64,000 nucleotides of DNA, taken from Terribacillus sp. DMT04. GTDB lineage: Bacteria; Bacillota; Bacilli; Bacillales; Amphibacillaceae. The notes under the pieces are model-generated. The model saw only the letters and a list, made by a program, of their open reading frames with translations, was not told where the DNA came from and ran no database searches. The stretch is taken from assembly GCF_019056395.1 (NCBI RefSeq), contig NZ_CP077639.1:2730001-2794000 (forward strand). The letters are read 5' to 3'. The translations under genes were made by a program, and so were the position numbers. This document shows, in pieces, positions 43,288 to 43,442 of this stretch. Within the stretch, counting starts at the first letter, position 1, and each line of letters opens with the position of its first letter.

Positions 43288-43406
43288 CGTAATCCCTCAT
43301 TTCTAGCATTTATTTATAGAATACCCATGTCCGTAAAAAAAGTTATATAAAAAATAAAAAGCGCTCCCTTTTGTAAGGGAACGCGCTTTGGACAATTAAA
43401 GAGCCC
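43288..43406 (-). promoter_or_regulatory. pyrG leader with CTP-responsive attenuator (candidate)
   Basis: The predicted transcript begins GGGCTC (complement at 43401-43406), the same initial sequence known for B. subtilis pyrG. There, low CTP causes slippage that adds extra G residues, which pair with a pyrimidine-rich terminator arm. The downstream terminator's 5' arm contains TTCCCTT, suited to pair with a poly-G 5' end. Confidence 0.75.
43355..43388 (-). terminator. pyrG attenuator / rpoE terminator
   Basis: AAAGCGC-GT-TCCCTT paired with AAGGGA-GCGCTTT, 5-nt loop, T-rich tail on the minus strand. It is the only terminator between rpoE and pyrG. Confidence 0.9.
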
Positions 43407-43413
43407 ACATAAA

Positions 43414-43442
43414 ATATTACTGCTTCTTTGTGTCAAAGTCAA
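43414..43442 (-). promoter_or_regulatory. pyrG promoter
   Basis: Minus-strand TTGACT (complement 43437-43442), 17-bp spacer, TAATAT (complement 43414-43419), with 7 bp to the GGGCTC start. Confidence 0.75.

Follow-up and report, generated by a model that had tools for sequence, protein, structure and literature searches.

A pyrG leader of Terribacillus sp. DMT04 with the conserved layout of the Bacillus subtilis CTP-sensing attenuator

The short DNA segment ahead of pyrG in Terribacillus sp. DMT04 raises the question of whether the expression of CTP synthase is controlled in this organism by a CTP sensor of the Bacillus subtilis type. CTP-sensitive reiterative transcription attenuation controls pyrG in B. 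subtilis (PMC4403831, PMC4448216); a similar start sequence and terminator have been described in S. agalactiae (PMC4448216), and G reiteration at pyrG has been reported in S. pyogenes (PMC6431027). According to a sequence-only reading of the window (the whole stretch of 64,000 nucleotides analysed here), the same layout is present upstream of its pyrG. Our analysis points to the same answer, and we put the probability that this leader acts as a CTP-sensing attenuator of pyrG transcription, working by CTP-sensitive reiterative transcription as in B. subtilis, at about 0.93. The features on which the argument depends are the following.

41677..43287, minus strand: pyrG, CTP synthase, with a TTG start at 43287 (TIGR00337)
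43349..43360, minus strand: U tract UUUUUAUUUUUU of the terminator (sequence reading)
43361..43384, minus strand: intrinsic terminator (attenuator), stem-loop GCGUUCCCUU-ACAA-AAGGGAGCGC (sequence scan)
43375..43381, minus strand: UUCCCUU run in the terminator 5' arm, proposed partner of the 5' poly-G (folding and comparison of arms)
43386..43401, minus strand: small hairpin CUUU/AAAG after GGGC (leader folding comparison)
43401..43406, minus strand: GGGCTC, predicted RNA start (+1 = 43406) and putative slip site (7 nt past the -10, on sequence)
43414..43419, minus strand: -10 element TAATAT (sequence reading, comparison with relatives)
43437..43442, minus strand: -35 element TTGACT (sequence reading; same placement relative to GGGC in relatives)
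43464..44015, minus strand: rpoE, RNA polymerase delta subunit (TIGR04567)

The identity of pyrG is firm (854 bits to TIGR00337, against a cut-off of 463), and the attenuator lies directly upstream of it on the same strand. Read directly from the minus strand, the order 5' to 3' is TTGACT, 17 nt, TAATAT, the 7-nt discriminator TTTATGT, GGGCTC, the terminator, its U tract and pyrG. The promoter is thus of sigma-A type, and its 17-nt spacer and 7-nt discriminator place the predicted start at GGGC, in agreement with the earlier claim of a promoter spaced for an RNA beginning GGGCTC. That reading had also called the promoter good, which holds for the spacing and the discriminator, both as in relatives, but is slightly generous for a -10 element that matches only four of six consensus positions. 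The terminator announced with TTCCCTT in its 5' arm was found as well, between the promoter and pyrG, with a 10-bp stem (GCGUUCCCUU/AAGGGAGCGC) and an ACAA loop. The pyrG start codon itself (43285-43287) is TTG, as in seven sister species; two others (L002 and L003) have ATG.

Conservation of this arrangement had been asserted in the earlier reading without proof, and genome comparisons now supply it. Of 150 genomes of the order, 104 contained the exact promoter-GGGCTC layout, in nearly all cases as a single match, versus 0 of 150 for the reversed control; all 30 of the 30 order-level loci that we read precede pyrG, whose start lies 156 to 417 nt past the start of the pattern. Across the class, a pattern of the same strict spacing that also admitted the GGGCAC form was matched in 34 of 200 genomes. 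The streptococcal loci with this GGGCAC form precede pyrG too, and Paenibacillus-type leaders, which carry GGGCTT and a TAAACT -10, were for that reason missed by the class-wide pattern. A relaxed promoter-GGGC pattern, applied to the organism's own 3.5 Mb genome, gave four matches, only one of them before pyrG; the other three were considered as further sites of this kind and taken as chance, since no pyrG adjoins them and the reversed control also gave four.

Furthermore, we compared the 700 nt upstream of 110 pyrG loci, a set drawn from two collections in which some species are present twice. A promoter followed by GGG was found in 98 of the 110, and the base after GGG was C in every one of these 98, with a spacer of 17 nt in 87 and a discriminator of 7 nt in 92. 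The twelve loci without the pattern include clostridial or otherwise distant ones, L025 with a weak -35, L081, whose copy lies 631 nt upstream and has a weaker -10, and L017 and L023, two loci of the same family. For this last pair no attenuator was found up to 700 nt upstream of pyrG, where the DNA is rich in unusual repeats, and it may have been displaced or lost. The promoter-GGGCTC-terminator arrangement is therefore real, well conserved and above chance, and all the features of the B. subtilis pyrG layout that sequence allows to be checked are present here and conserved across Bacilli.

A sign that the terminator is not an ordinary one comes from its two arms. Among 56 distinct pyrG terminators, 54 carry CCC in the 5' arm and none carries it in the 3' arm. 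Of 31 further terminators in the window, the 5' arm holds CCC in 2, and these are a single hairpin read on either strand. Across the ten species of the genus no change is seen in the 5' arm CGTTCCCTT, in contrast to the 3' arm, which reads GGGAGC, GGGAAC or GGGGAC. Additionally, an unpaired pyrimidine of the C/U run lies inside the stem in 20 of 88 leaders, and in a set of 19 one-by-one mismatches within the stems of relatives, 17 had a pyrimidine on the 5' side, with C facing U, A or C in 13 and G on the 3' side in only two. The run stays unbroken in spite of these mismatches, so it is maintained without need of stem pairing. The arm and mismatch counts are inflated by the relatedness of the species but consistent in direction, and they indicate that the constraint on the 5' arm does not come from the 3' arm, which is what one would expect were added poly-G a second partner for it.

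This pattern also bears on other accounts of the locus. The hairpin could be just the terminator of rpoE, with the pyrG promoter reading through it at a constant, unregulated rate, given that only 21 nt separate the end of rpoE (43464) from the pyrG -35, and that a scan of 42800-43800 returned no second terminator-like site besides 43384-43361. We consider this very unlikely, because the hairpin lies downstream of the pyrG promoter and not before it, and because the fixed spacing of GGGC is conserved jointly with the C/U run of the 5' arm, even across species whose leaders differ in length. As rpoE has no terminator-like site of its own, the pyrG attenuator probably doubles as its terminator, and rpoE transcripts probably end there too (43361-43466, minus strand).

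Promoters that sense GTP also have G at the start, and the GGG at +1 might accordingly reflect control of promoter strength by the initiating nucleotide alone, next to a separate and constitutive terminator; that leaves the invariant C at +4 and the CCC of the terminator arm unexplained, and makes this account even less probable than the previous one. Attenuation through a protein such as PyrR, or through a riboswitch ligand, has a precedent in the B. subtilis pyr operon, which is attenuated by PyrR (PMC4403831) and resembles the present case as pyrimidine-responsive transcription attenuation in Bacilli. PyrR, however, is a protein sensor activated by UMP, and an Rfam search of the leader region at E values up to 1 returned neither a PyrR-binding element nor any family for this leader; with only 22 nt from the start to the terminator stem there is also little room for an aptamer, and we regard this as the least probable of the accounts considered.

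CTP-sensitive reiterative attenuation would, by analogy with the B. subtilis work from which the start site, the slippage, the CTP dependence and the factor-free action are taken, proceed here as follows. RNA polymerase would initiate at GGGC. With ample CTP, C would be added at +4, the normal leader made, and transcription halted ahead of pyrG by the terminator at 43384-43361. When CTP is scarce, the polymerase would stall before C, slip on the GGG tract and add extra Gs; the resulting 5' poly-G would pair with UUCCCUU as this arm emerges, ahead of synthesis of the 3' arm, which would keep the terminator from forming and let pyrG be transcribed. Transcripts from rpoE, having no poly-G, would be unable to escape the shared terminator. 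For B. subtilis pyrG such attenuation was reportedly worked out by Meng, Turnbough and Switzer in 2004 and by Elsholz et al. in 2007.

According to folding calculations, made with one energy model that leaves out G-quadruplexes, the decision would have to fall during transcription. At equilibrium the terminator of the full leader was paired at a probability of about 0.91 whether no Gs or as many as 14 were added, and it likewise stayed folded in the leaders of Bacillus safensis and Lactococcus laudensis, used as proxies for the tested species. Equilibrium folding is thus uninformative as a test of the switch, since the terminator always wins, and it does not set the window's leader apart from the proxies; the switch would have to be kinetic, with poly-G capturing the 5' arm before its 3' partner exists. 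In an RNA ending before the 3' arm and without added G, the best structure had -4.7 kcal/mol and left the 5' arm free, and addition of 4 to 8 Gs led to its capture at -13 to -16 kcal/mol. With half of the 3' arm made, poly-G was still predicted to prevail from 3 added Gs upwards.

The comparison of leaders also brought out a small hairpin just after GGGC. Of 86 distinct leaders, 35 have a hairpin above a fixed score beginning at +5 and 28 have one beginning at +6, the two sets overlapping. The share is 10 to 12% at +4 and +7, where some of the stems are shared with these, and 0 to 7% at the other positions (+1 to +3, and +8 and beyond). The mean score of the leaders was 4.3 versus 1.5 in dinucleotide shuffles, with p of 0.1 or less in 49% of leaders, and the stems vary yet remain paired (UCCUU/AAGGA, UCCAU/AUGGA, UCUAUU/AAUAGA, ACCUC/GAGGU, ACCGC/GCGGU, GCUUUACG/CGUAAAGC). 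By these sequence comparisons, nearly half of pyrG leaders carry a compensated hairpin starting at about +5. In the genus it is UCUUU/AAAGA or UCUUU/GAAGA, and a one-base deletion leaves CUUU/AAAG in the window, where the hairpin sits inside the loop of the predicted poly-G antiterminator. It is possible, at somewhat less than even odds, that it is a working part that reduces the length of the loop separating poly-G from the C/U arm inside the antiterminator, or that stalls the polymerase near the slip site. No description of it was found in the literature searched, to which the primary B. subtilis papers did not belong, and it may be known.

Compared with the known systems, the leader shares with B. 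subtilis pyrG, for which a close Bacillus proxy (L041, GGGCUC) served as the sequence stand-in, the gene, the GGGC start, the intrinsic leader terminator and the C/U run in the 5' arm. It differs from the B. subtilis type in its 5' hairpin, shortened by the one-base deletion, and in its TTG start codon, and from Bacillus safensis in the short distance from start to terminator, the stem beginning at +23 here and at +42 there. The pyrG leaders of streptococci, enterococci and Lactococcus likewise have the GGGC start, the C/U arm and the terminator, but GGGCAC where GGGCUC is found here, and a stronger hairpin of the ACCUC/GAGGU type.

Further observations concern other sequences of the window. 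Downstream of the terminator and ahead of the pyrG start codon, a 33-nt block (GGACATGGGTATTCTATAAATAAATGCTAGAAA, 43300-43332, minus strand) is invariant in all ten species of the genus, in comparison with only 26% invariant third codon positions in pyrG; it holds a 4-codon ORF (ATG GGT ATT CTA TAA) and is present as a single copy in the genome. Its GGGTAT was considered as a sigma-B -10 and rejected on inspection, as a GTTT -35 at suitable spacing is lacking. Elsewhere in the window, 35684-35716 (minus strand) matches the L31-Firmicutes ribosomal protein leader of Rfam (RF03156, 37.3 bits), and the ORF that follows looks like the L31 type without zinc cysteines.

The mechanism itself is already known, and the leader described here is a further well-supported example of it. 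Judging from the conserved layout, the CTP sensor of B. subtilis appears to extend to a further genus and broadly across Bacilli, and the statistics set it apart from ordinary terminators. In addition, the comparative set yields details that can be tested, namely the hairpin after GGGC and the stem mismatches that spare the C/U run.
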